From an uncultured Oscillibacter sp. (GTDB lineage: Bacteria; Bacillota; Clostridia; Oscillospirales; Oscillospiraceae), in assembly GCA_947382875.1 (NCBI GenBank), contig CANDBG010000029.1, forward strand, positions 1 to 33,225: 33,225 nt of DNA. Reading direction: 5' to 3'. The notes beneath the pieces were generated by a model. The model searched no databases, was not told the DNA's origin, and saw nothing but the letters and a program-made list of their open reading frames with translations. Made by a program: the position numbers and the translations under genes. This document shows positions 18,894-31,425 of the stretch, piece by piece; within the stretch, counting starts at the first letter, position 1; each line of letters begins with the position of its first letter.

Positions 18894-19484
18894 TTAACCC
18901 TCCGGGAACAGCTTTTTTGCGACAGCCCCTGCGGTCTCAGCCTTTTGCAGACGAACAAGGGTATCGAAGGCGCAGTTGACCTCCACGCTGCCCGACCGCA
19001 GGATAAAGCCGCCTTTAATTGGACGGGTTTCCTGGGAGAGGGTCAATTTTTTCCCGCCGTCCTTGTTGGCCTTTTCCACGGCGGCCTTACCAGCTTTTTT
19101 CTGGTCTTCCGGGGAGAAAATGACCTCCTCCTTCCCGTTGGAGCTGGCCTGCGCCAGCAGCCCGGCCAGAACGTCCGTATACTGTTCCGCGGGCATGGCG
19201 CAGAGCTTTTCCAGGGCCAGCTCATACGCCTTCTCGACCATCTCCTGCTTTGCGGCCAGGAGGGCCTTTCGGGCCTCCATCTGGGCAGTACCGGCCAGAC
19301 GCTCCTCGCGTTCGGCGGCTTCCTTACGGTTTTTTACGGCAAAGCCAGCGGCTTCGGCTTCGGCTTCGGCCTTGTACTTCGACGCAATCCGCCCGGCCTC
19401 CGCCCGGGCTTCATTGAGCACGCGGTCGATTTCAGCCTGAGCGTCGGCCTGGATGCGCTGGGTGATTTTATCAATACCATTCAT
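18894..19484 (-). CDS. ntpE: V-type ATPase subunit E (peripheral stalk)
   Basis: A 196-residue subunit of the peripheral stator. The first 110 residues are a long, Ala/Glu/Lys-rich coiled coil (IQADAQAEIDRVLNEARAEA and on) that pairs with NtpF, and the carboxyl domain (RPIKGGFILRSGSVEVNCAF) is the globular head-binding part typical of the family. The ATG at 19484 has a GGGG-type site. Confidence 0.92.
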   Translation of the reverse strand: MNGIDKITQRIQADAQAEIDRVLNEARAEAGRIASKYKAEAEAEAAGFAVKNRKEAAEREERLAGTAQMEARKALLAAKQEMVEKAYELALEKLCAMPAEQYTDVLAGLLAQASSNGKEEVIFSPEDQKKAGKAAVEKANKDGGKKLTLSQETRPIKGGFILRSGSVEVNCAFDTLVRLQKAETAGAVAKKLFPEG

Positions 19485-19511
19485 TGTTGAATCCCCTTTC
19501 TTTGGGGCCGA

Positions 19512-20045
<534 letters not shown>

Positions 20046-20053
20046 CTAATTTT

Positions 20054-21985
20054 TTACTGAATATCCACATATTTGGGGTTGATTTCCAGGGGACGGAAAG
20101 GCTTTCCGCCGTCCTCATAGAACTTGCCAAAGTATTCCAGGCATTGCAAACGCAGGTCATGCACATAGCAGCCCAGCAGGTTGAGCGCGAAGTTAAGAGC
20201 GTTGCCCGCCAGGGAGATGACCAGGAAAATAAGGATGTTGCCCGGAATTGCGCCCAGAGTATTGAAGACCTGGGCAATGACGCTGCCCGCCAGCATCAGG
20301 GCCATCAGACGGGCATAAGAGAGGATATCGCCGAAATAGCCCGTCACATGGTTGTAGAGGGACCCGAAGATTCCCATGATTTTGCCCATCCCCTGACCAG
20401 TAATCAGCGGCCCGACGATCACAAGGGCAATGCCGGCATAGAGAACCAGATTGGTAATCCCGGCGGCCATGAGACCGATGCCGAGGAACACCACCCACCA
20501 CGTCACTTCTTCAAAAATGGCGTCCAGGACGTTTCCGGCTTTGATCTTGCGCACGAAGCTGATTGCCATACCGGTGATGATCTGCACGAGGCCGAGGGCC
20601 ATTGCGCCGACGAGAATCATTAAGGTGTCGTTGAGCGGCGTGAACAGCGAGGGCAGTGCAAAGGAGCTCTGTCCTTTGGTAAGGATGCTGACGACCTGGG
20701 TCAGGAAATCGCCGAAGAAGCCGCCGGTAATGGCGCCCCAGATAAAGGTCGAGACGCCGCAGAGCTGCATCAGGCCCATCATATGGCCCATGGTGCCCTT
20801 TGGACGGAACTTTTTGGCGACGATGGTTCCCGCCAGGAACATCAGAATGCCATAGCCCATATCGGCCATCATGATACCGTAAAACAGGATAAAAAACGGG
20901 GCCATGAGGGGGTTTGGGTCGACGTTGCCGTAGGACGGCAGCGAATACATTTCCGTCACCATGTTCAGCGGCTTCGTGAACCAGTTATTTTTCAGCTGTA
21001 CCGGCACGTCCGGGATTTCGTCTTCGGTAGGATCGGCGGCTTCCCAGGCGCAGCCGTAGTCATCCAGGAGCGTCTGCACCTGCGGCAACCGTTCTGCGGG
21101 GACCCAGCCCTCAAAAAACAAAATGGTGCCGTCGGTCAGAAGACGTTCGGCGTTGGTATGCTTGGCGGCTTCCGCCGTAAGCCGGTCAACGTAAACCTGC
21201 AGGGATTCCTTTTCCGTGCCGCAGGCGGCGATTTTAGCCTCAGCCTCCTGACGCAGCTTCTGGTTTTGGGACAGCTCCCGGTCCAGCGCCTGTACGTTTT
21301 CCGCCGCGGTTCCTTTCAGGTCCTGGAAGGCCGTCACACTGAATCCGTAAGGCCGCAGCAATTCCAGGGCGGCCTCATCGTCGTCGCGGTGGCAGACCAG
21401 CAGGCAGTACCGCTGCTGTTTCCCGCCGCTGACCTCGAACAGTTCCGCGGCAAGATTTGCGCCGGCCAGCTCATTGGCAACCGCGCCCGTCTCCACTGCG
21501 CCGGGGAACACGCCCAAACGGTAAACCACGTGCGGAGTACCGTTGAGTTCCAGGGGCATATCCAGGGAGACCCAGGGCTCCAGGCCCGCCCGGCGGGATT
21601 GCAGACGCCCCTCCTCCCCTTGCAGCCGCGAAATTTCCTGCAAGGCAGCGTTGATGTTCCCGCAGACCTCCCGGGCTTTGGTCACGGTGTCGTCGCTGAG
21701 GAACATCTCCTGCGCCACGGGGCGGCGCTGGATGAACAGGCCGTCCTTGGCGCCAGCGTACCGCTTGAGGGCGTCCAGGGCGGCGTTGGCGCGGGTGAGT
21801 TCGGTTTTCGTCTCCGTGAGGGCAGAGGCGTCCCGCCGCAGCAGCGCGGACCACGCCGGGTCCGCGAGTTTGGCGTCCGGCTCACTGATCTCCACGCAGC
21901 CCAGCCGGAGCAGCTGGCCCAGCAGGTCTTCCCGGCGGTTGGCCATCGCCAGAACGCGGAGCTTTTTCATTTTTACAATGGCCAT
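20054..21985 (-). CDS. ntpI: V-type ATPase subunit I (a subunit, stator)
   Basis: A 643-residue stator protein. The first 330 residues are a cytosolic helical arm, and from about 350 the membrane part begins (PLMAPFFILFYGIMMADMGYG). LSYARLMALMLAG holds the conserved arginine (Arg559), which releases ions from the ring carboxylate. VHDLRLQCLEYFGKFYEDGG near the end is a family signature. It begins two bases after ntpF. Confidence 0.96.
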   Translation of the reverse strand: MAIVKMKKLRVLAMANRREDLLGQLLRLGCVEISEPDAKLADPAWSALLRRDASALTETKTELTRANAALDALKRYAGAKDGLFIQRRPVAQEMFLSDDTVTKAREVCGNINAALQEISRLQGEEGRLQSRRAGLEPWVSLDMPLELNGTPHVVYRLGVFPGAVETGAVANELAGANLAAELFEVSGGKQQRYCLLVCHRDDDEAALELLRPYGFSVTAFQDLKGTAAENVQALDRELSQNQKLRQEAEAKIAACGTEKESLQVYVDRLTAEAAKHTNAERLLTDGTILFFEGWVPAERLPQVQTLLDDYGCAWEAADPTEDEIPDVPVQLKNNWFTKPLNMVTEMYSLPSYGNVDPNPLMAPFFILFYGIMMADMGYGILMFLAGTIVAKKFRPKGTMGHMMGLMQLCGVSTFIWGAITGGFFGDFLTQVVSILTKGQSSFALPSLFTPLNDTLMILVGAMALGLVQIITGMAISFVRKIKAGNVLDAIFEEVTWWVVFLGIGLMAAGITNLVLYAGIALVIVGPLITGQGMGKIMGIFGSLYNHVTGYFGDILSYARLMALMLAGSVIAQVFNTLGAIPGNILIFLVISLAGNALNFALNLLGCYVHDLRLQCLEYFGKFYEDGGKPFRPLEINPKYVDIQ

Positions 21986-21986
21986 C

Positions 21987-22304
21987 TCAGTGCTTCACAA
22001 CCCTTCCCACGATAAACTCTGCCGCCTCCTCCAAATGGTGCTTTGCCTTTTTTTGGAGGTCCGCGGCGGCGGCCTCGGCAGCCCGGCCCGTCTCCGCCGC
22101 CCGGACGGCGGCTTTTTCCTCCGCCTGCCGCAAGAGGGCTTTTCCCTCTTCCAGCGCCGCGGCGCGGGTCTGCTGCACCAGAGCCTGCCCGTCGCGCTCC
22201 GCGCCGGAGAGGATCTGACGCGCTTCCGCCTCAGCCGCCGCGCGGCGTTCCCGGGCTTCGCGCTCCACCTGCGCCACCTTTTCGATTGCTTCCAGGGACA
22301 TCAT
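21987..22304 (-). CDS. ntpF: V-type ATPase subunit G/H (NtpF, peripheral stalk)
   Basis: A coiled-coil protein of 105 residues rich in Ala, Glu, Arg and Lys (EAIEKVAQVEREARERRAAA), which wraps around NtpE in the peripheral stalk. The frame stays open to 22454, but that part would start upstream of the promoter, so I begin at ATG 22304 (or 22301), after GAAGGTGAAA. It is the first gene of the operon. Small G/H-type subunits vary greatly in sequence, so the name rests mostly on position, size and coiled coil. Confidence 0.85.
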   Translation of the reverse strand: MMSLEAIEKVAQVEREARERRAAAEAEARQILSGAERDGQALVQQTRAAALEEGKALLRQAEEKAAVRAAETGRAAEAAAADLQKKAKHHLEEAAEFIVGRVVKH

Positions 22305-22412
22305 TTTCACCTTCTCTCTTCGACATACAGAAACCAGGCGGTCCGGGCGGCTGACGCCTCTTTTGGCAGGCGGCGGCATCCGCATCCGGCCCGCATGGCC
22401 GTCTCTCTTGAC

Positions 22413-22441
22413 ATTATAGCCCAGCCGCGTCATCTTTGCAA
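22413..22441 (-). promoter_or_regulatory. Promoter of the V-ATPase operon
   Basis: On the minus strand, TTGCAA (22441-22436) and TATAAT (22418-22413) are 17 bases apart. Transcription would start near 22405, leaving a GC-rich leader of about 100 bases before ntpF. Confidence 0.75.
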
Positions 22442-22712
22442 GGCATATTTTCATAAATTACCAGAGAAACCATAGGAAAGGTGTTTTTTTCGGGGAAAAA
22501 CGGAGCAGCGCGTACCCGGTTTACCGGAGGGCTTCGGAAAAAAATCCGGCAGTCTTTTCCCGGTTTTGATTTCTTTGCAGGCCCGGCGGAAAGTGTCCTG
22601 ATTTCTGCATTTCGGGCAGAATTACCGCTCTACATCACATTAAAGTGCTGAAAGAGAGGGTTTTGTATCGCGGAAAAGATGGGCAGTCCGGCGCGAAACA
22701 TATAAAATACAG
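22442..22712. other. Intergenic stretch between divergent operons
   Basis: No gene or clear element. It separates the V-ATPase promoter from the promoter of the binding lipoprotein on the other strand. Confidence 0.5.
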
Positions 22713-22740
22713 TTGACAAAGCGGGGATTTTTGTTAAAAT
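22713..22740 (+). promoter_or_regulatory. Promoter of the ABC importer operon
   Basis: A perfect -35 TTGACA (22713-22718) and -10 TAAAAT (22735-22740) with a 16-base spacer. The start of transcription should be near 22748, giving a leader of about 100 bases. Confidence 0.75.
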
Positions 22741-22747
22741 AGTGGAA

Positions 22748-22839
22748 GCTCAAAAGGTGTACGCCTATGCGGGAACAGTTTCCCGGGGAAACCAACGTTT
22801 GCGTTTCTGGTACGCCCGGCGGCACAAATTTTTAGGAGG
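22748..22839 (+). other. Structured 5' leader of the first binding-lipoprotein gene
   Basis: The leader holds a short hairpin (CGGGAA with TTCCCG, about 22770-22785), a weaker GAAAC/GTTTC pairing and two copies of GTACGCC (22759-22765 and 22810-22816). I could not match it to a riboswitch family. Confidence 0.35.
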
Positions 22840-22845
22840 TTTATA

Positions 22846-24129
22846 ATGAAGAAGTTTCTCTGCATGTTGCTGACGCTCGCCATGGTCTTTACTCTGGCGG
22901 CCTGCGGCGGCAACGACACCCCGTCCACCCCTGACAACTCCCAGCCCAACACCGGCGACGCTTCCGGCGACACTGCCGGCGATACGGGTGACACGGGCGA
23001 CACCGGCGATACTGCCGGCGATTATCACATCGGCATCATTACCGGTTCCGTTTCCCAGTCCGAGGACGACCGCCGCGGTGCGGAGGCCTTCCAGGCCGAG
23101 TACGGTGAGGACCGCATCAAGCTTGCCATCTACCCCGACAACTTCACCGAGGAGCTGGAAACAACCATTCAGACCATCGTGAATATGTCCGACGACCCGG
23201 ACATGAAGGCCATTATCGTGAACCAGGCCGTTCCCGGCACAACGGAAGCATTCCGTCAGATCAAAGAACGCCGCCCCGACATCATCTGCATCGCGGGTGA
23301 GTCTCACGAAGACCTGCCGGAAATTGGTTCCGCCGCCGACCTTGTTTGCAACAACGACTTTGTTTCCCGCGGCTACCTGATTATCCGCACTGCTCACGAG
23401 CTGGGCTGCGACACCTTCGTTCACATTTCTTTCCCCCGTCATATGGCCTATGAGACCATGAGCCGCCGCGCGGCCATCATGGAGGAGGCCTGCAACGATT
23501 TCGGCATGACCTTCGTGCAGGAAACCGCTCCCGACCCCACCACTGACGTAGGCATCCCCGGTGCGCAGGCGTATATCCTTGAGAAAGTGCCCGAGTGGGT
23601 CAGCAAGTACGGCGAAAACGCCGCCTACTTCTGCACCAACGACGCGCATACCGAGCCCCTGCTCAAGCGCCTGCTCGAGTACGGCGGCTACTTCATCGAA
23701 GCCGACCTGCCCTCTCCTCTGATGGGCTATCCCGGCGCGCTGGGCCTGGACCTCACCGAGGAAGCGGGCGATTTCGCCAAGATTCTCGCGAAGGTGGAAT
23801 CCTCCATCTCTGACGCCGGCGGCGCGGACCACTTCGGCACCTGGGCTTATTCTTACGGCTACACCCTGTCCGCCGGCCTCGCGCAGCACGCCATGAACGT
23901 CATCGACGGCAAGAGCGAGCTTCAGGATATGGACGACGTTGCTTCCGCCCTTCAGGTCTACTCTCCCGACGCGGAGTGGAATGGCTCCGGCTATACCAAC
24001 GCCACCACCGGCGTCAAGTCCGACAACGTGTTCCTGATCTATCAGGATACCTATATCATGGGCAACCCCGGCCATTACATGGGCAACGCCCAGGTGGAAG
24101 TCCCCGAGAAGTTCTTCACCATCAGCTGA
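22846..24129 (+). CDS. Binding lipoprotein 1 of an unknown-substrate ABC importer (likely DUF3798)
   Basis: A 427-residue lipoprotein. Signal and lipobox LAAC (Cys20) are followed by a linker made of Gly-Asp-Thr repeats (about 36-58), and then a compact periplasmic-binding-like domain that opens YHIGIITGSVSQSEDDRRGA. From memory this is the DUF3798 family, uncharacterised lipoproteins found beside ribose-type ABC transporters. It should catch a small molecule outside the cell. TTGACA/TAAAAT at 22713-22740 drives it and AGGAGG precedes the start. A close paralogue follows 128 bases later. The substrate is unknown. Confidence 0.82.
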   Translation: MKKFLCMLLTLAMVFTLAACGGNDTPSTPDNSQPNTGDASGDTAGDTGDTGDTGDTAGDYHIGIITGSVSQSEDDRRGAEAFQAEYGEDRIKLAIYPDNFTEELETTIQTIVNMSDDPDMKAIIVNQAVPGTTEAFRQIKERRPDIICIAGESHEDLPEIGSAADLVCNNDFVSRGYLIIRTAHELGCDTFVHISFPRHMAYETMSRRAAIMEEACNDFGMTFVQETAPDPTTDVGIPGAQAYILEKVPEWVSKYGENAAYFCTNDAHTEPLLKRLLEYGGYFIEADLPSPLMGYPGALGLDLTEEAGDFAKILAKVESSISDAGGADHFGTWAYSYGYTLSAGLAQHAMNVIDGKSELQDMDDVASALQVYSPDAEWNGSGYTNATTGVKSDNVFLIYQDTYIMGNPGHYMGNAQVEVPEKFFTIS

Positions 24130-24133
24130 GTTA

Positions 24134-24213
24134 CCCCCTCTTTGCCTGATTACAGGGGGGATATGGGGTTTCCGGTCCCCACCCCCTCGGGGACCGGCCC
24201 CCGCCCCCTCTGT
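24134..24213 (+). repeat. Alternative hairpins between the two binding-protein genes
   Basis: CCGGTCCCC (24172-24180) pairs with GGGGACCGG (24189-24197). CCCCCT (24134-24139) pairs with AGGGGG (24154-24159), and the same AGGGGG could instead pair with CCCCCT near 24204-24209. There is no T run, so it may stabilise or process the transcript, not end it. Confidence 0.6.
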
Positions 24214-24257
24214 ATTCAGAGTTTCGAAAATAAAAGAGAAATTTCAGGAGGTTCGTC

Positions 24258-25523
24258 ATGAAAAAGTTTCTCTCCATGCTGCTGGCGCTGGCGATGGTTC
24301 TCTCCCTCGCAGCCTGCGGCGGAAACAGTAACGGCGGGGGCAGCGGCTCCGTTCAATCCGGCGGCGATGCGTCCCAGGACAGCGGGGACGGCGGCGGCGA
24401 GGATGCCGGCGAAAATTATCACATCGGCATCATCACCGGCTCCGTCTCCCAGACCGAGGACGACCGCCGCGGCGCAGAAGCCTTCCAGGCCAAATACGGC
24501 GAGGACCGCGTAAAACTCGCCATCTACCCCGACAACTTCACGGAGGAAATGGAGACCTCTATTCAGACCATTCTCAACATGTCTGATGACCCGGACATGA
24601 AAGCAATCATTGTAAATCAGGCCGTCCCCGGCACGACGGAGGCGTTCCGTCAGATCAAGGAGCGGCGTCCGGACATCATCTGCATTGCCGGTGAGCCGCA
24701 TGAGGACCTGCCGGAAATCGGTTCCGCCGCCGACCTGGCCTGTACCAGCGACTTTGTTTCCCGCGGCTACCTCGTCATCCGCGCCGCCCACGAGCTGGGC
24801 TGCGACACCTTTGTGCATGTCTCCTTCCCGCGGCACCTTGCTTACGAAAGCATGAGCCGCCGCGCGGCCATCATGGAGGCCACCTGCAAGGAGTACGGCA
24901 TGACCTTCGTCCAGGAGACCGCCCCTGACCCGATTACAGACGTTGGCGTTCCCGGCGCACAGGCGTTCATTCTGGAAAAGGTGCCCGAGTGGGTGGACAA
25001 GTACGGTCAGAACACGGCCTTTTTTGCCACCAACGGCGCACATACGGAACCGCTGCTCAAGCGTCTGATGGAGTGCGGCGGCTACTTCGTGGAAGCCGAT
25101 ATGCCGTCCCCGCTGAAGGGCTACCCCGGCGCGCTGGGCCTGGACCTCACTGAGGAAGCGGGCGATTTTGAAAAAATCCTCGCCAAGGTGGAACAGGCCA
25201 TTGTGGAAGGCGGCGGCGCGGGACGCTTCGGCACCTGGGCTTATTCCTACGGTTACACCCTTTCGGCTGGCCTTGCCGAGCATGCTATGAACGTCATTGA
25301 GGGCAAGAGCGAGCTGCTGGACATGGACGACCTTTCCTCGGCGTTCCAGGTCTACACCCCGAATGCGGAGTGGAACGGTTCCGGTTACGTCAACGCCACT
25401 ACCGGCGTCAAGTCCGACAACGTGTTCCTCGTCTATCAGGATACCTACATCATGGGCGACCCGGGCTGGTACATGGGCAACGCACAGGTGGAGGTCCCCG
25501 AAAAATATTTCACAGTCAGCTGA
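24258..25523 (+). CDS. Binding lipoprotein 2 of an unknown-substrate ABC importer (likely DUF3798)
   Basis: A 421-residue lipoprotein, tandem paralogue of the preceding gene, matching about four in five residues by eye in the mature domain. It has lipobox LAAC (Cys20), a Gly/Ser/Asp-rich linker, and the same domain start (YHIGIITGSVSQTEDDRRGA). The linkers differ while the domains are alike, so this is a duplication with the spacer left free to drift. AGGAGG precedes the ATG at 24258. The transport genes follow behind a terminator-like hairpin. It could bind the same ligand or a variant of it. Confidence 0.82.
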   Translation: MKKFLSMLLALAMVLSLAACGGNSNGGGSGSVQSGGDASQDSGDGGGEDAGENYHIGIITGSVSQTEDDRRGAEAFQAKYGEDRVKLAIYPDNFTEEMETSIQTILNMSDDPDMKAIIVNQAVPGTTEAFRQIKERRPDIICIAGEPHEDLPEIGSAADLACTSDFVSRGYLVIRAAHELGCDTFVHVSFPRHLAYESMSRRAAIMEATCKEYGMTFVQETAPDPITDVGVPGAQAFILEKVPEWVDKYGQNTAFFATNGAHTEPLLKRLMECGGYFVEADMPSPLKGYPGALGLDLTEEAGDFEKILAKVEQAIVEGGGAGRFGTWAYSYGYTLSAGLAEHAMNVIEGKSELLDMDDLSSAFQVYTPNAEWNGSGYVNATTGVKSDNVFLVYQDTYIMGDPGWYMGNAQVEVPEKYFTVS

Positions 25524-25545
25524 CAACACAAATCTTTCACAAACG

Positions 25546-25577
25546 CAGGGGGAGGCAGACCTCCCCCTGATTTTCTT
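25546..25577 (+). terminator. Leaky terminator/attenuator before the transport ATPase
   Basis: A perfect ten-base stem CAGGGGGAGG (25546-25555) with CCTCCCCCTG (25560-25569), loop CAGA, followed by TTTTCTT. It sits between the second binding-protein gene and the ATPase gene with no new promoter seen, so it likely lowers membrane-component expression relative to the binding proteins. Confidence 0.8.
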
Positions 25578-25593
25578 AGGTAGGGTGCAGTTT

Positions 25594-27189
25594 ATGGAAA
25601 AACAAGGTACTCCCCTCTTGCAGATGCAGAACATCAAAAAGGATTTCTTCGGCAATCAGGTCCTCACCGATATCAATTTCACCCTGGGCGCAGGCGAAGT
25701 CCTGGGCCTGTGCGGCGAGAACGGCGCGGGCAAGAGTACGCTCATGAAGATCCTTTTCGGGATGGATGTCATCCGGGAAACCGGCGGGTACAGCGGCGAC
25801 GTCCTCATTGACGGCCAGAAGGTCACGTTCAACACGCCCTTCGACGCACTCGCCGCCGGAATTGGTATGGTTCACCAGGAATTCTCTTTGATTCCCGGCT
25901 TTACTGCCGCAGAAAATATTGTTCTGAACCGGGAACCCGTCAAGAAAACGCTTCTTTCCGAGGTGTTTGGCGACCGGCTCAATACCCTCAACTACAAGGC
26001 CATCGCGGAGACCTCCGCCAAGGCCATCGAAAAAATGGGCGTGGAGATTGACGCCAACATGCGCATCAGCGATATGCCTGTCGGTCACAAGCAGTTCACC
26101 GAAATCGCCCGGGAACTGAGCAAAGATCAACTGAAGCTGCTCATTCTTGACGAGCCCACCGCCGTTCTGACGGAAAAGGAAGCCGCCGCGCTTCTGGATT
26201 CCATCCGGAAAATGTCGGCCCAGGGCATCGCGGTCATCTTCATCACCCACCGCCTCCACGAAATTTTGTCGGTGTGCAACAAGGTGGTGGTCATGCGGGA
26301 TGGCTACGTCGTCCGCGACGTGCCCGCCGAGGAGACCAGCGTCTCCGACATTACCAAGTGGATGGTGGGACGGAACGTGGAAGCCCCCGCCGCCGCGCCG
26401 GACAAACAAACCGCTTCGGCAGCTTCCGCCGGAAAAGCGATTCTTTCCATCCGAAACCTCTGGGTCGATATGCCCGGCGAAACTGTGCGAAACGTTACCC
26501 TGGATGTACAGGAGGGCGAGATTTTAGGTATCGGCGGTCTTGCCGGACAGGGAAAACTGGGTATTCCCAACGGCGTCATGGGCTTGTACGACGCTGGCGG
26601 GCACGTGGAATTTGACGGGAAAGAGATTCCCCTCAACAACCCCAAGGCGTGCCTTGACGCATCCCTTGCGTTCGTCTCCGAGGACCGCCGGGATGTGGGT
26701 CTGCTCCTGGACGAAAGCCTTGAGTGGAACATTGCATTCCCGGCGATGCAGGTGCAGAACAAGTTCCTCAAGCACATCGGTCCGATTGCCCTCCGGGACG
26801 AAAAGGCCATTCAGGAAGTTACCCGGAAGTATATTGACGAGCTGATGATCAAATGCACCAGCAGTCAGCAGAAGGCCCGGGAGCTCTCCGGCGGCAACCA
26901 GCAAAAGGTATGTCTTGCGAAGGCTTTCGCGCTGGAACCGAAATTCCTCTTTGTTTCCGAACCCACCCGCGGCATTGACGTGGGTGCAAAGGCCCTGGTT
27001 CTCGACGCGCTGAAGAAGTTCAACCGGGAACGGGGCGTTACCGTGGTCATGATCTCCTCCGAATTGGAGGAGCTGCGGCAGACCTGCGACCGGATTGCGA
27101 TTGTCTCCGGCGGACGCATCGCGGGGATTCTCCCGGCGTCGGAGTCGTCGGAGGAATTCGGTATGCTGATGGTCAGCCAAGTGAAGTAA
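25594..27189 (+). CDS. ABC transporter ATPase with two nucleotide-binding domains (RbsA/MglA type)
   Basis: A 531-residue ATPase with two fused domains, as in ribose, galactose and purine-nucleoside importers. Domain 1 has Walker A GENGAGKS (about 44-51) and Walker B LLILDEPTAVLTEKE. Domain 2 has a decayed P-loop (GGLAGQGKLGI) but a perfect signature LSGGNQQKVCLAKA. The same asymmetry of one active and one degenerate site is usual in the family. I start at ATG 25594; the frame runs further upstream through the previous gene. The ribosome site TAGGGTG is weak. It stands just after the hairpin at 25546-25577. Confidence 0.92.
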   Translation: MEKQGTPLLQMQNIKKDFFGNQVLTDINFTLGAGEVLGLCGENGAGKSTLMKILFGMDVIRETGGYSGDVLIDGQKVTFNTPFDALAAGIGMVHQEFSLIPGFTAAENIVLNREPVKKTLLSEVFGDRLNTLNYKAIAETSAKAIEKMGVEIDANMRISDMPVGHKQFTEIARELSKDQLKLLILDEPTAVLTEKEAAALLDSIRKMSAQGIAVIFITHRLHEILSVCNKVVVMRDGYVVRDVPAEETSVSDITKWMVGRNVEAPAAAPDKQTASAASAGKAILSIRNLWVDMPGETVRNVTLDVQEGEILGIGGLAGQGKLGIPNGVMGLYDAGGHVEFDGKEIPLNNPKACLDASLAFVSEDRRDVGLLLDESLEWNIAFPAMQVQNKFLKHIGPIALRDEKAIQEVTRKYIDELMIKCTSSQQKARELSGGNQQKVCLAKAFALEPKFLFVSEPTRGIDVGAKALVLDALKKFNRERGVTVVMISSELEELRQTCDRIAIVSGGRIAGILPASESSEEFGMLMVSQVK

Positions 27190-27201
27190 GGAGGGAACAC
27201 A

Positions 27202-28260
27202 ATGGGTTATGTTGGTATCGCCGAGGGCCTGCGTTACTGGATGAAACGCATGGAAATGCCCCGGCTCATAATCGCAGGATTTTTGGTTCTGCTCTATGTG
27301 ATTGCCCCGTTTGTCGGGGCGGATTTCCCCACGCAGATTACAAACACAATCAACCGTTTCAGCTGGAACGCCGTCCTCGTTCTGGCGATGGTGCCGATGG
27401 TGCATTCCGGCTGCGGCCTGAACTTCGGCTTACCGCTGGGCATTATCTCGGGCCTGCTGGGCGCGACGCTTTCCATTCAATTCGGCTTCACGGGCCTTTT
27501 GAGCTTCGTGATGGCGATTGTGATTGCGACGCCGTTTTCGGTATTGTTCGGCACGGGGTACGGCACGCTGTTGAACAAAATCAAGGGCGGCGAAATGATG
27601 ATTGCCACGTATGTGGGCTTTTCAGCGATTTCGTTCATGTGCATGATGTGGCTGCTGCTGCCGTACACCAGCCCGACGATGGTCTGGGGCCTGTCCGGCG
27701 CGGGCCTGCGTCCCACGATCTCCCTGGAGGGCTTCTACGATCAGGTTCTTGCAAATTTCCTCCACATTAAGATTGGTAATTTTGAAATCCCAACCGGGTC
27801 CCTGTTGTTCTTCGCGCTGCTGGCGTTTTTGATGTGGCTGTTCCTGCGCACCAAAACCGGCACGGCCATGACGGCGGTCGGCTCGAACCGGGTGTTTGCC
27901 CAGGCCGCCGGCATCAACGTCGACCGCACCCGGACGCTCTCCGTCATTCTCTCCACGTGGTTAGGCGCGGTTGGCATCCTGGTTTACCAGCAGGGCTTCG
28001 GGTTCATCCAGCTCTACACCGCCCCCAACAACATGACGCTGCCTACGGTCTCCGCGATTCTGATTGGCGGCGCGTCGGTGAACAAGGCGTCGATTCCGAA
28101 CGTGATTATCGGTACCATTTTGTTCCAGGGCATGGTCACGATGACGCCGACCATCATGAACGCTCTGATTCACATGGACATTAGCGAAGTGGTGCGCGTG
28201 ATTGTCACACAGGGTATGATTCTCTACGCCCTGACCAGAAAGCCCGAGGGGGGGAATTGA
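27202..28260 (+). CDS. ABC importer permease 1 (BPD_transp_2 type)
   Basis: A 352-residue permease with eight to ten hydrophobic segments, of the branched-chain/ribose permease superfamily. The ATPase-docking loop TAVGSNRVFAQAAGINVDRTRT (about 225-246) and the late ILIGGASVNKASIPNVIIG are typical. AAGGAGGG precedes the ATG. It forms a heterodimer with the next permease. It starts 12 bases after the ATPase gene. Confidence 0.92.
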   Translation: MGYVGIAEGLRYWMKRMEMPRLIIAGFLVLLYVIAPFVGADFPTQITNTINRFSWNAVLVLAMVPMVHSGCGLNFGLPLGIISGLLGATLSIQFGFTGLLSFVMAIVIATPFSVLFGTGYGTLLNKIKGGEMMIATYVGFSAISFMCMMWLLLPYTSPTMVWGLSGAGLRPTISLEGFYDQVLANFLHIKIGNFEIPTGSLLFFALLAFLMWLFLRTKTGTAMTAVGSNRVFAQAAGINVDRTRTLSVILSTWLGAVGILVYQQGFGFIQLYTAPNNMTLPTVSAILIGGASVNKASIPNVIIGTILFQGMVTMTPTIMNALIHMDISEVVRVIVTQGMILYALTRKPEGGN

Positions 28261-28262
28261 GC

Positions 28263-29369
28263 ATGAAGCAAAATAAGGTACTGAATTTTCTGCTGAACAA
28301 TATGGTGCCGATTATGTTCATCATTATCTGTGCCGTACTGATTCCTCTGTCGGGCTTCTCCGCGGGGTATCTGCTCAACGAAATTATTACCCGTATGGGC
28401 CGGAACACGTTCCTGGTTCTCTGCTTACTGTTCCCGATCATGTCCGGCATGGGCCTGAACTTCGGCATGACGTTAGGCGCGATGGCGGCGGAAATTGCGA
28501 TTATTTTCGTAGCCGACTGGCAAATCTGGGGTCTGCCGGGAATCGTGCTGGCGGTGATCCTGTCGCTTCCGATTTCAGTGGCCCTGGGCTGGCTCTGCGG
28601 CACGATCATGAACATGGCGATTGGCCGGGAAATGATCACCGGCTATATCATGAACTTCTTCATCGGCGGCTGGTATCAGCTGGTAGTGCTGTTTATGATG
28701 GGGCCGATTATCCCGATTGTCCACAGCTCCATCAAGCTCCCCCGGGGCTACGGCATCCGCAACACGGTCAGCCTGCTGAATATGCGCCAGACCCTGGACG
28801 ACCTGTTAGCAATCCGCATCGGAGGCATCAAGATTCCGGTTCTGACGTTCCTGCTTATTGGTCTGCTGTGTCTGTTTATCGTCTGGTTCCGCCGGACGAA
28901 GCTGGGCCAGGATATGCGGGCCGTGGGACAGGATATGAACGTCGCCCGGGACGCGGGCATCAAGGTCGAGCGCACCCGCATCATTTCCATCATCATGTCG
29001 ACGGTTTTCGCCGGGTTTGGCATGGTCATTTATCTGCAAAACATGGGCAACCTCCCCACCTACACTGCACACAGTCAGATCGGTATGTTCTGCATTGCGG
29101 CTCTGCTGGTAGGCGGCGCGTCGGTGGAAAAGGCTTCCATTAGCAACGCCTTCCTTGGCGTGACGCTCTTTCACCTGATGTTCATTGTCGCGCCCGCCGC
29201 CGGTACGGAGATCATCGGCGATTCGATGATTGGCGAATACTTCCGCGTGTTTGCCTCCTACGGCGTCATTACGCTGGCGCTGATCATGTATGAGATGAAG
29301 AAGCGCAGAAGCAAAGGGCAGGCGGGTCAGATGCTGGCCCAGGCCCAGCGAGAGGAGGAAGCGTCGTGA
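28263..29369 (+). CDS. ABC importer permease 2 (BPD_transp_2 type)
   Basis: A 368-residue permease, second half of the membrane channel, with about nine hydrophobic segments. It shares the docking loop (RAVGQDMNVARDAGIKVERTRI) and the LLVGGASVEKASISN block with permease 1. I start at ATG 28263, which follows a run of G at good spacing; a TTG at 28257 opens the same frame and overlaps the previous stop. The tail is basic (KKRRSKGQ) and cytosolic. Confidence 0.9.
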   Translation: MKQNKVLNFLLNNMVPIMFIIICAVLIPLSGFSAGYLLNEIITRMGRNTFLVLCLLFPIMSGMGLNFGMTLGAMAAEIAIIFVADWQIWGLPGIVLAVILSLPISVALGWLCGTIMNMAIGREMITGYIMNFFIGGWYQLVVLFMMGPIIPIVHSSIKLPRGYGIRNTVSLLNMRQTLDDLLAIRIGGIKIPVLTFLLIGLLCLFIVWFRRTKLGQDMRAVGQDMNVARDAGIKVERTRIISIIMSTVFAGFGMVIYLQNMGNLPTYTAHSQIGMFCIAALLVGGASVEKASISNAFLGVTLFHLMFIVAPAAGTEIIGDSMIGEYFRVFASYGVITLALIMYEMKKRRSKGQAGQMLAQAQREEEAS

Positions 29370-29866
29370 AGTCCAAACGGAGAGTGCTGATTTGCCTGCT
29401 GTCGGTGGCGGTATTGGCTGCCATTGCCGCCGTGATGATGATTATTGGCCGCGGGCACACGATTTACGTGGACAACCGGAGCGTCGACTATAACGGGCAG
29501 ACGTATGAAGCGCCTTACAAAGTGACCGTCTACGTCAAGGACGAACAGATCGCGAAGCTCTACGACAAGGAGCGCGGTATGTCCACCTGGATTGGTCAGA
29601 ATTTCCAGATGACGCTGGAAGTCATGGAAAAAAAGGGCGGCGACGAGGTTTTGCAGACCATCCAGCTCAAGCTGCCCTATGACATGGACGGTATTATCGT
29701 GAACCTTCCGGCGGTGCTAGCGGGGCTTCCGGAAGAAGCCTGGCTGACGGAGTTCATTCCTGCGCCGGTGGTGGAGGAAGACGACGGCGAGATTCCCGGC
29801 GAGAGTGACGAGTTCGGTCTCGAGGGCGACATGGGCGACGATATGGGCCTTGGCGGCGATATCTGA
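29366..29866 (+). CDS. Small membrane-anchored protein with acidic carboxyl tail, part of the importer operon
   Basis: A 166-residue protein that I do not recognise with certainty (possibly DUF6672). It has one membrane helix near the start (about 7-27), a beta-rich outer domain (HTIYVDNRSVDYNGQTYEAP...) and a strongly acidic, Gly/Met-rich tail (EEDDGEIPGESDEFGLEGDM). The GTG at 29366 overlaps the permease 2 stop by four bases after an AGGAGG site, so it is tightly coupled to the transporter. A chaperone or ligand-loading partner of the binding lipoproteins is possible. It may also bind a cation through its acidic tail. Both are inference. Confidence 0.7.
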   Translation: MKSKRRVLICLLSVAVLAAIAAVMMIIGRGHTIYVDNRSVDYNGQTYEAPYKVTVYVKDEQIAKLYDKERGMSTWIGQNFQMTLEVMEKKGGDEVLQTIQLKLPYDMDGIIVNLPAVLAGLPEEAWLTEFIPAPVVEEDDGEIPGESDEFGLEGDMGDDMGLGGDI

Positions 29867-29916: not shown

Positions 29917-29949
29917 CATACCGCTCATGCTTCCGGCATGAGCGGTATG
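29917..29949 (+). promoter_or_regulatory. Strong hairpin just before the dipeptidase ribosome site
   Basis: A perfect 14-base stem (CATACCGCTCATGC, 29917-29930, with 29936-29949) capped by TTCCG. It has no T run, and AAGGAGG begins four bases after it. It may end the importer transcript by processing, or protect or gate the start of the next gene. Confidence 0.6.
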
Positions 29950-29964
29950 CATAAGGAGGAGCAC

Positions 29965-31425
29965 ATGGCGATTTTATCTGGATTGGAACCAAAAAAGGTA
30001 TTCGAGTATTTTGAGAAACTGAGCAGCGTACCTCACGGCAGCGGCAACACGAAGCAAATCAGTGATTTGTGTGTTGGATTTGCCAAGGAATTGGGGCTTG
30101 CTTACCGGCAGGATGACGCGAATAATGTCGTCATTTGGAAGCCTGCCTCCCCCGGCTACGAAGACGCGCCAACGGTAATTCTGCAAGGGCATATTGATAT
30201 GGTGTGTGCGAAAGAGCCGGGATGTGGGAAGGATATGGCTGTCGAGGGCCTGGACCTTAAGACGGACGGCGAATGGGTATGGGCAGACCAGACCTCTCTG
30301 GGCGGAGATAACTGTATCGCGGTAGCGATGGCGCTGGCTGTCTTGGCCGACGACACCCTCCCCCACCCTCCTCTGGAAGCCGTCTTCACCACCGAGGAAG
30401 AAACGGGCATGGACGGTGCGCAGGCGTTGGATTGCAGCGATTTGAAGGGACGTCTTCTGCTGAACCTGGATTCAGAAGAGGAAGGCGTTTTCACGGTCTC
30501 CTGCGCCGGCGGGATGCGGGTGGACTGTCTGCTTCCGGGCACGCTGGAAGCGGTGGAAAACGCATCAGGGTTTGCAGTGACGCTCTCCGGGCTTCAGGGC
30601 GGCCACTCCGGACAGGATATTGGCAAGGGCCGCGGGTCGGCGAACCCGCTGATGGTTCGCACGCTGTTTACAGCGATGGAACGGATATCGGGGCTGCGTC
30701 TGACGGATATCCGCGGCGGACGGTTTGACAACGTGATTTGCCCGCAGAACGAAGCAAGGATAAGCGTTCCAGCGGATCGGGCCAACGATTTCCAGGCGTT
30801 TATCCGGGAGTTCGACGCCGTGCTGAAAAACGAATACGCGGGCTGTGACACAGGCGTAAGCCTGACGTGCGCCCCAGCGTCGGTGGAGCGGGCCTGGACG
30901 GCCCAGGCAACCTCAGACGCGCTGCACACACTTCTGGCGCTGCCCCAGGGCGTCCAGGCGATGAGCACGGATTTCCCGGGCATGGTACAAACCTCCCTGA
31001 ACCTTGGTCTGATTTCCTTGGAGGAAGATGGTCTGCATTTTTCGTTCTCTCTGCGTTCGAGCATTGCGTCGCAGAAGGAGATGCTGTTCCAGCGGTTACG
31101 TGCAATTGTGGAATATGGCGGCGGCACGGTTTCGCAGCGGAGCAGTTACCCCGGCTGGCAGTATGTACGGGATTCAGCGGCGCGGGAACGTCTGCTGACG
31201 GTTTACCGTGATCTCAGCGGACAGGAAGGGGTCATAATGGGAACCCACGGCGGCTTGGAGTGCGGATTGTTTATCGAGAAAATTCCAGGGCTTGACGCAA
31301 TTTCGTTTGGTCCGGAACTGCACGATGTACACTCACCGCGGGAACGTCTGAACGTCCCCTCTACCGCCAGGACGTACGCGCTTGTGTGCGAGTTTTTGAA
31401 GCGGAGCAACGCGCAGGGCGCGTAA
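29965..31425 (+). CDS. pepD: PepD-type aminoacyl-histidine dipeptidase (M20 family)
   Basis: A 486-residue cytosolic zinc peptidase that splits dipeptides (Xaa-His and broader). Metal-site motifs are GHIDMV (His76, Asp78), SLGGDNCIA (Asp115) and TTEEETGMDG (Glu145, Glu146). The lid-domain signature QGGHSGQDIGKGR is present in the middle. I start at ATG 29965 after AAGGAGG (29953-29959); an ATG at 29938 opens the same frame but lies inside the hairpin. It is 98 bases after the transporter operon, so a link with that importer is possible but not shown. A terminator follows at 31475-31506. Confidence 0.93.
   Translation: MAILSGLEPKKVFEYFEKLSSVPHGSGNTKQISDLCVGFAKELGLAYRQDDANNVVIWKPASPGYEDAPTVILQGHIDMVCAKEPGCGKDMAVEGLDLKTDGEWVWADQTSLGGDNCIAVAMALAVLADDTLPHPPLEAVFTTEEETGMDGAQALDCSDLKGRLLLNLDSEEEGVFTVSCAGGMRVDCLLPGTLEAVENASGFAVTLSGLQGGHSGQDIGKGRGSANPLMVRTLFTAMERISGLRLTDIRGGRFDNVICPQNEARISVPADRANDFQAFIREFDAVLKNEYAGCDTGVSLTCAPASVERAWTAQATSDALHTLLALPQGVQAMSTDFPGMVQTSLNLGLISLEEDGLHFSFSLRSSIASQKEMLFQRLRAIVEYGGGTVSQRSSYPGWQYVRDSAARERLLTVYRDLSGQEGVIMGTHGGLECGLFIEKIPGLDAISFGPELHDVHSPRERLNVPSTARTYALVCEFLKRSNAQGA

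Follow-up and report, generated by a model that had tools for sequence, protein, structure and literature searches.

What does an importer carry when its ATPase and permeases follow the plan of ribose systems, and what does the small membrane protein at the end of its operon do? The question is raised by a locus of an uncultured Oscillibacter sp. (Oscillospiraceae), found in a stretch of 33,225 nucleotides (assembly GCA_947382875.1, contig CANDBG010000029.1, forward strand) that was analysed as a whole and is called the window here. An earlier note, made from the letters alone, had proposed a linked RbsA-type ATP-binding cassette (ABC) importer at positions 22846-29866. This is borne out by the list of open reading frames (ORFs), in which six co-directional ORFs occupy the span that it had given, and by Pfam matches to ABC_tran and BPD_transp_2. 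The genes are as follows, together with a seventh that begins 71 nt after the sixth.

22846..24129, + strand: SBP1, DUF3798 lipoprotein, the conserved copy (427 aa; PF12683, E 2.4e-122, 408.1 bits against a cut-off of 24.6)
24258..25523, + strand: SBP2, a faster-evolving paralogue in tandem with SBP1 (421 aa; PF12683, E 2.6e-119, 398.1 bits against a cut-off of 24.6)
25594..27189, + strand: RbsA-type double ATPase (531 aa; Pfam ABC_tran in two stretches)
27202..28260, + strand: permease 1 (352 aa; Pfam BPD_transp_2, E 5e-17)
28257..29369, + strand: permease 2 (370 aa; Pfam BPD_transp_2, E 2e-15)
29366..29866, + strand: DUF6672 accessory protein with an N-terminal membrane helix, a modelled beta-sandwich and an acidic tail (166 aa; PF20377, E 4e-58, 195.9 bits against a cut-off of 24.3)
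29938..31425, + strand: PepD-like M20 dipeptidase, the seventh gene (TIGR01893, beta-Ala-His dipeptidase, 484.5 bits against a cut-off of 343.75)

The operon is real and represents a conserved subfamily of importers of RbsA architecture with a dedicated accessory protein. It has the double ATPase, the BPD_transp_2 permeases and the type-I binding protein of RbsA-type ABC importers, and the main Pfam match of each of the six proteins exceeds its cut-off. The ATPase was taken to start at the ATG at 25594, which agrees with relatives; a longer TTG start in the ORF list falls inside the preceding gene. Among the best 25 of 188 NCBIfam families, no model exceeded its cut-off for any of the six proteins, and this includes the equivalog models of named sugar importers such as RbsA.

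The binding proteins both carry the lipobox LAACGG, read directly from the sequence. Their only believable sequence relative in the PDB is 3QI7 (E 8e-36). A model of the binding protein, built with AlphaFold2 from 5 sequences, has a mean predicted local distance difference test (pLDDT) score of 63, and a Foldseek search with it returned 3QI7 first (E 2e-16), followed by type-I binding proteins of the sugar and amino-acid types.

The accessory protein follows the transporter through its relatives. Among 149 related genomes, DUF6672 occurs in 17 and DUF3798 in 19. Fifteen genomes of the window's genus have both families; in the genomes with DUF6672 only (G023, G074) and in one with DUF3798 only (G036), the contig ends inside the operon, and three genomes outside the genus (G090, G127, G145) have DUF3798 without DUF6672. 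Of 398 genomes sampled evenly from the phylum, 68 have DUF3798, the window's own included, and one, the window's genome, has DUF6672 over its cut-off; a match in G322 was under the cut-off. Thus DUF6672 is over cut-off in none of the 67 other DUF3798-bearing genomes of that sample. It is also found in Hungatella, in two further genomes and in Fusobacterium, where DUF3798 occurs too, and always with the transporter unless the contig ends. Among 200 genomes drawn from the family to which the Hungatella genome belongs, three have DUF6672 over the cut-off, each time adjoining the transporter (a match in G601 was under it). Our own DUF6672 profile found no further homologue among ORFs of at least 50 residues in the loci examined at that stage. 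The expectation of the earlier note that the small protein would be retained with the transporter in relatives therefore held.

A tree of 87 DUF3798 rows, which comprises fetched loci only and has several long branches, places all DUF6672-linked binding proteins and one unlinked Fusobacterium paralogue in a single group of 24 rows (support 100/100). DUF6672 is thus the mark of a single branch of DUF3798 transporters, with members in the window's genus, Hungatella and Fusobacterium. Outside the DUF6672 group, 53 of the 63 fetched loci have a contiguous core of binding protein, ATPase, permease and permease without DUF6672, the other 10 being orphans, rearranged, decayed or cut; Fusobacterium has the same core order with DUF6672. 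Genes of relatives were called with a home-made picker of ORFs by codon usage, so that the lists of neighbours are approximate. This picker missed permease 2 in L040, L076, L079, L081, L084 and L089, where a raw ORF search recovers it.

A survey of co-occurrence, as the earlier note had proposed, confirmed five of its six genes as a conserved unit but not the tandem lipoprotein. In the genus, 15 other genomes bear DUF3798, with one match apiece, and the tandem pair is found only in the window's genome, which rules out a conserved six-gene unit. In the tree, SBP1 and SBP2 are sisters (support 96/81). Some columns vary little or not at all across 22 relatives; SBP1 departs from them once and SBP2 12 times. 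Among the changes in SBP2 are N163T, D260G and M287K, which by analogy with type-I binding proteins would be placed in loops. In our reading, SBP2 is a recent copy whose ligand range may be changing. A second tandem DUF3798 pair, outside the subfamily, was seen at L110. Fusobacterium also has a second DUF3798 lipoprotein (L140, 7216-8466) with no adjoining transporter, downstream of genes that by eye resemble an rnf cluster. Five DUF3798 matches, one of them with two in-frame stops, lie on contigs C9, C22 and C58 of G357 (L113), and the three of them in the stretch fetched from this genome are without the transporter core.

The DUF6672 protein has a single hydrophobic helix: its Kyte-Doolittle maximum over 19 residues is 2.97, and the best such span starting after residue 35 reaches 1.19. 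From residue 133 onwards, its tail has 13 Asp or Glu residues and no Lys or Arg. The AlphaFold2 model (4 sequences, mean pLDDT 71.5) has a helix at residues 4-26, strands, and an unordered tail from residue 137; in this model the strands form a beta-sandwich after the one N-terminal helix. From the basic N-terminus we infer that the sandwich and the tail face outward, and are therefore probably outside the cell. The gene shares 4 nt (GTGA) with that of permease 2, preceded by AGGAGG, and the translational coupling read by the earlier note thus stands. The 4-nt overlap is found in the window, L039 and L041; in Fusobacterium a gap of 15 nt separates the two genes. An overlap count of 23/23 from a scan was set aside, as the scan sought only xTGA near the start and did not place the permease stop.

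The one-helix protein with an acidic tail described in the note is present in the window, but the tail is not a defining trait, since the homologue in Fusobacterium, 109 residues long, lacks such a tail. This homologue lies directly after permease 2. Its match to PF20377 is weak (25.7 bits, over the cut-off of 24.3) and covers residues 4-38 only; it aligns along its length with other DUF6672 proteins in our own profile, which contained the homologue itself. Two genes past it, L072 (21295-28407) encodes a protein of 2370 residues that looks like an autotransporter by eye. Foldseek found no relative of the DUF6672 fold in the PDB at E 0.001 (best E 0.07), and its 50 best matches were vague sandwiches of the fibronectin or Ig kind and other weak ones. 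Two PDB sequence matches (E 0.68 and 3.6) were not believable.

Is this protein a part of the transporter? It could be an envelope protein with no tie to the transporter other than a shared mRNA. Since DUF6672 was not detected over the cut-off in the 67 other DUF3798-bearing genomes of the phylum sample, or by our own profile in the loci examined at that stage, the core can seemingly work without it. However, DUF6672 is kept throughout the subfamily in two phyla and has the 4-nt coupling, and the only copies over the cut-off that stand apart from the operon are at contig ends. We therefore regard an unrelated envelope protein as unlikely.

Our best explanation of the locus is an importer of RbsA architecture with DUF6672 as a docking accessory, a peptide-like substrate and a diverging SBP2; taken whole, it is tentative and somewhat short of an even chance. 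The DUF3798 lipoprotein, with its type-I binding fold, would capture a small molecule and deliver it to the BPD_transp_2 channel, a heterodimer powered by the double ATPase. In one subfamily, DUF6672 would serve as an accessory subunit. Held in the membrane by its signal anchor, it would present its beta-sandwich on the outer side, where it most likely docks the lipoprotein at the permeases, or positions it there, through a putative contact. The substrate would most likely be a small peptide or a peptide-like amide. Once imported, it would be cleaved by metallopeptidases whose genes adjoin the operon, PepD at this locus and M24 or M20 enzymes elsewhere. The data show the operon, its protein families and linkage, the fold class of the binding protein, the subfamily clade and the nearby peptidase genes; the class of substrate, the orientation in the membrane and the docking role are inferred from them. 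Judged from neighbouring genes alone, a peptide-like substrate is our best single guess, with moderate confidence.

The neighbours that suggest this substrate are metallopeptidases, which stand beside DUF3798 genes at above the expected frequency. A PepD-type M20 dipeptidase, linked to the operon within the window's genus, directly follows 17 of 23 DUF6672 genes. In the wider family, at least 9 of 66 genomes, from 6 GTDB families, have an M24 metallopeptidase gene adjoining the DUF3798 gene or operon, counted by hand (five upstream, four downstream; the operon of G324 is decayed). This survey covered 66 of the 67 other DUF3798 genomes, the one omitted being G264 with a weak partial match. Of 106 immediate neighbours, 10 belong to M24, more than to any other Pfam family, and 3 are M20 enzymes; the orphan loci L092, L093, L113 and L140 are left out of this count, and six of the loci behind the count of 10 were chosen because M24 had already been seen there. 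Without these six, M24 makes up 4 of 104 adjacent genes. M20 or M24 genes number 14 of 223 within two positions of the operon against 1 of 366 at four positions or more over all loci, and 7 of 205 against 1 of 343 without the six chosen loci (Fisher P 0.005). Farther out, M24 does not reach the 25 commonest families, either for the 125 co-directional genes at positions 2-3 (of 126, one very long protein being omitted) or for the 122 genes at positions 5-6 (of 148); these families go down to two members, so that up to two M24 genes may occur in each set. For 5 independent events, where about 0.22 would be expected, the Poisson P is 4e-6, both inputs being our own estimates.

Several observations weigh against a peptide importer of this kind. 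M24 stands beside only 9 of 66 operons among the matches listed. The family also includes methionine aminopeptidase and creatinase-like enzymes, and M24 adjacency therefore need not mean peptides. In L039, Hungatella (L041), L145, L146 and Fusobacterium, the DUF6672 gene has no PepD gene beside it. Other neighbours are alanine dehydrogenase, histidine ammonia-lyase and, by eye, adenine deaminase and purine permeases. The model of the binding protein is weak, with its mean pLDDT of 63. Furthermore, to our knowledge the RbsA-type systems of known substrate carry sugars, nucleosides, AI-2 or vitamin B6, and not peptides.

The operon could instead be a sugar importer of the ribose or xylose kind with a drifted binding protein that DUF6672 merely stabilises. 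The ATPase aligns along its full length to the xylose, GguA and RbsA models, and ribose-, glucose- and xylose-binding proteins are among the Foldseek neighbours after 3QI7. However, all the displayed sugar-ATPase models, from the best 25 of 188 families, remain far under their cut-offs (395.9 of 699 for xylose, 388.6 of 810 for GguA, 354.4 of 745 for RbsA), and no sugar kinase or glycosidase is found among the 25 most frequent families of near neighbours. A sugar substrate thus seems rather improbable to us. The NCBIfam model of the vitamin B6 ABC importer was not reached either, by the ATPase (303.2 of 670) or by a permease (23.2 of 465).

PnrA/BmpA systems use the same transporter class, and an importer of nucleosides or purine bases like them would agree with the Foldseek matches to PnrA and BmpD and with genes that by eye resemble adenine deaminase (upstream, L073), DeoC (L109) and purine permeases (nearby, L095 and L101). 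Yet each such neighbour was seen in one or two loci by eye and none reaches the 25 most frequent families of neighbours, and Pfam assigns the lipoproteins to DUF3798 rather than to the BMP-type family, so that nucleosides also have little claim. Import of free amino acids, e.g. histidine, is the least likely of these readings: histidine ammonia-lyase, present in 46 of the 66 genomes, lies within 10 kb of the DUF3798 gene in 8, and alanine dehydrogenase adjoins 2 operons, but the histidine cases, from a profile search that excluded the DUF6672 subfamily loci, are confined to two GTDB families and mostly do not adjoin the operon directly.

The operon of the proposed peptide importer is preceded by a promoter-like site and a leader, and two further stem-loops lie between its genes.

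22713..22740, + strand: sigma-70-like promoter, TTGACA-16-TAAAAT with TG before the -10 element (consensus scan, 11/12 matches)
22741..22840, + strand: 5' leader with a Shine-Dalgarno sequence at its end (alignment, pair counts, covariance model)
22752-22769, 22770-22785 and about 22810-22816, + strand: parts of the leader, namely a degenerate palindrome, a hairpin and the distal element GTACGCC
24172..24197, + strand: possible stem-loop after SBP1, CCGGTCCCC/GGGGACCGG (by eye from the sequence)
25546..25569, + strand: intercistronic stem-loop between the SBP and ATPase genes (10-pair stem)

The region holds 8 promoter-like sites, against 4.3 expected from shuffles, and a loose promoter pattern lies upstream of the operon in 18 of the 18 loci tried. 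In most members of the genus, the leader has about 95 nt and consists of the palindrome AAAAGGCGTACGCCTTTT, a second hairpin and a distal element resembling GCGCC that can pair with the left arm of the palindrome. It was seen in the window, L074, L077-L083, L085-L087, L090 and others, and two mutually exclusive pairings are possible. The window's copy of the palindrome has 3 mismatches, and the predicted fold of its leader lacks the proximal hairpin; its distal GTACGCC is able to pair with the left arm. At 0-1 mismatch, the palindrome is found only at the DUF3798/DUF6672 operon, in 11 of the 15 operon-bearing genomes searched and in none of 5 without the operon. Three other sites match it at 2 mismatches; a reversed control pattern gave 5 sites.

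Over 15 aligned leaders, the share of cells paired is 88% in the proximal hairpin, 79% in the second hairpin and 89% in the distal helix; changes on both sides occur in 1 of 7, 8 of 9 and 1 of 6 of their pairs, respectively. None of 500 shuffles attained the observed percentage paired for either structure. Slid controls of the proximal fold had 46-54% of cells paired against 83% observed, with 5-8 double-changed pairs against 9; since the controls also show double changes, the support for the leader comes mainly from the pairing and less from these changes. With a covariance model, the leader was detected in 15 of the 16 DUF3798-bearing genomes of the genus, the exception being G056. Of these 15 genomes, 13 were in the model; the others are G006 and G041, and the G041 binding protein is identical to that of G033 in the tree. 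The model has no match at the operon in Hungatella, L145, L146 or Fusobacterium. Rfam 15 has no match to the window leader (22650-22900) up to E 1, and the leaders of three relatives gave 4 Rfam matches, all far under gathering scores. Other genes with the leader might have given clues to a ligand, but the only model matches elsewhere than at the operon, in G030 (E 8e-5) and G121 (E 0.04), were taken as chance; that in G030 is an A/T-rich hairpin upstream of a gene resembling ribosomal protein S16 by eye. In L076 (6515-6654, G006), the palindrome-hairpin unit is duplicated.

The leader may act as an operator or as an attenuator, or it may be an RNA that senses a ligand. A bolder proposal, in which the operon would define a hitherto uncharacterised class of RbsA-type small-peptide importers with DUF6672 as a membrane-anchored outer subunit for docking the lipoprotein and an operon-specific, switch-like leader of two mutually exclusive folds, seems to us unlikely as a whole. 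The stem-loop between the SBP and ATPase genes may set an excess of binding protein. A stem of at least 9 pairs is present there in 21 of 22 subfamily operons and in 42 of 55 other DUF3798 operons, counts that have no shuffled control; the hairpin is thus general across DUF3798 operons and was rejected as a subfamily trait. Upstream of the operon in L080, L085, L086 and L090 lies a co-directional gene of 654-685 residues, chemotaxis-receptor-like by eye, with about 175-221 nt between its end and the operon. In the window, divergent genes upstream of it (18894-22454) resemble a V-type ATP synthase operon by eye.

The earlier note had called the system undescribed. Both proteins that it could not name were already catalogued, as DUF3798 and DUF6672, and the architecture is known, but we found no described function for either family in the literature searched. 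In the portions of full text retrieved for DUF3798, PF12683, DUF6672 and PF20377, there were only table rows naming DUF3798 and a list of Pfam accessions, and a further search gave nothing on the ligand. The list, in PMC9602780, has PF12683 among signatures of solute-binding proteins. FN1590 and FN1899 of Fusobacterium appear as DUF3798 in PMC5551000 and are reported as upregulated on airway epithelium in PMC12077211. PMC4893594 was judged by its title to be an unrelated text match. With DUF3798 in 68 of 398 genomes of the phylum and in Fusobacterium besides, the identity of the ligand would tell what a widespread importer family does and whether peptides can be the cargo of an RbsA-type system. 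For transporters of this class, DUF6672 would be an unusual additional subunit.

Among known systems, the sugar importers RbsABC and XylFGH (CUT2) share with the operon the double ATPase, the BPD_transp_2 permeases and a type-I binding protein. The operon differs from them in its DUF3798 binding protein, its two distinct permeases and its DUF6672 accessory, and its matches to the sugar equivalogs are far under cut-off. The PnrA/BmpA nucleoside importers have a similar binding-protein fold and a like transporter architecture, but the binding protein of the operon belongs to another family, and we know of no DUF6672 in those importers. The Dpp/Opp peptide importers resemble it in the proposed substrate class only; their permease and binding-protein families differ from those of the operon. 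Closest to the lipoproteins is 3QI7 of Clostridioides difficile, which belongs to the same DUF3798 (PF12683) family by sequence and fold, but has the title 'putative transcriptional regulator'.

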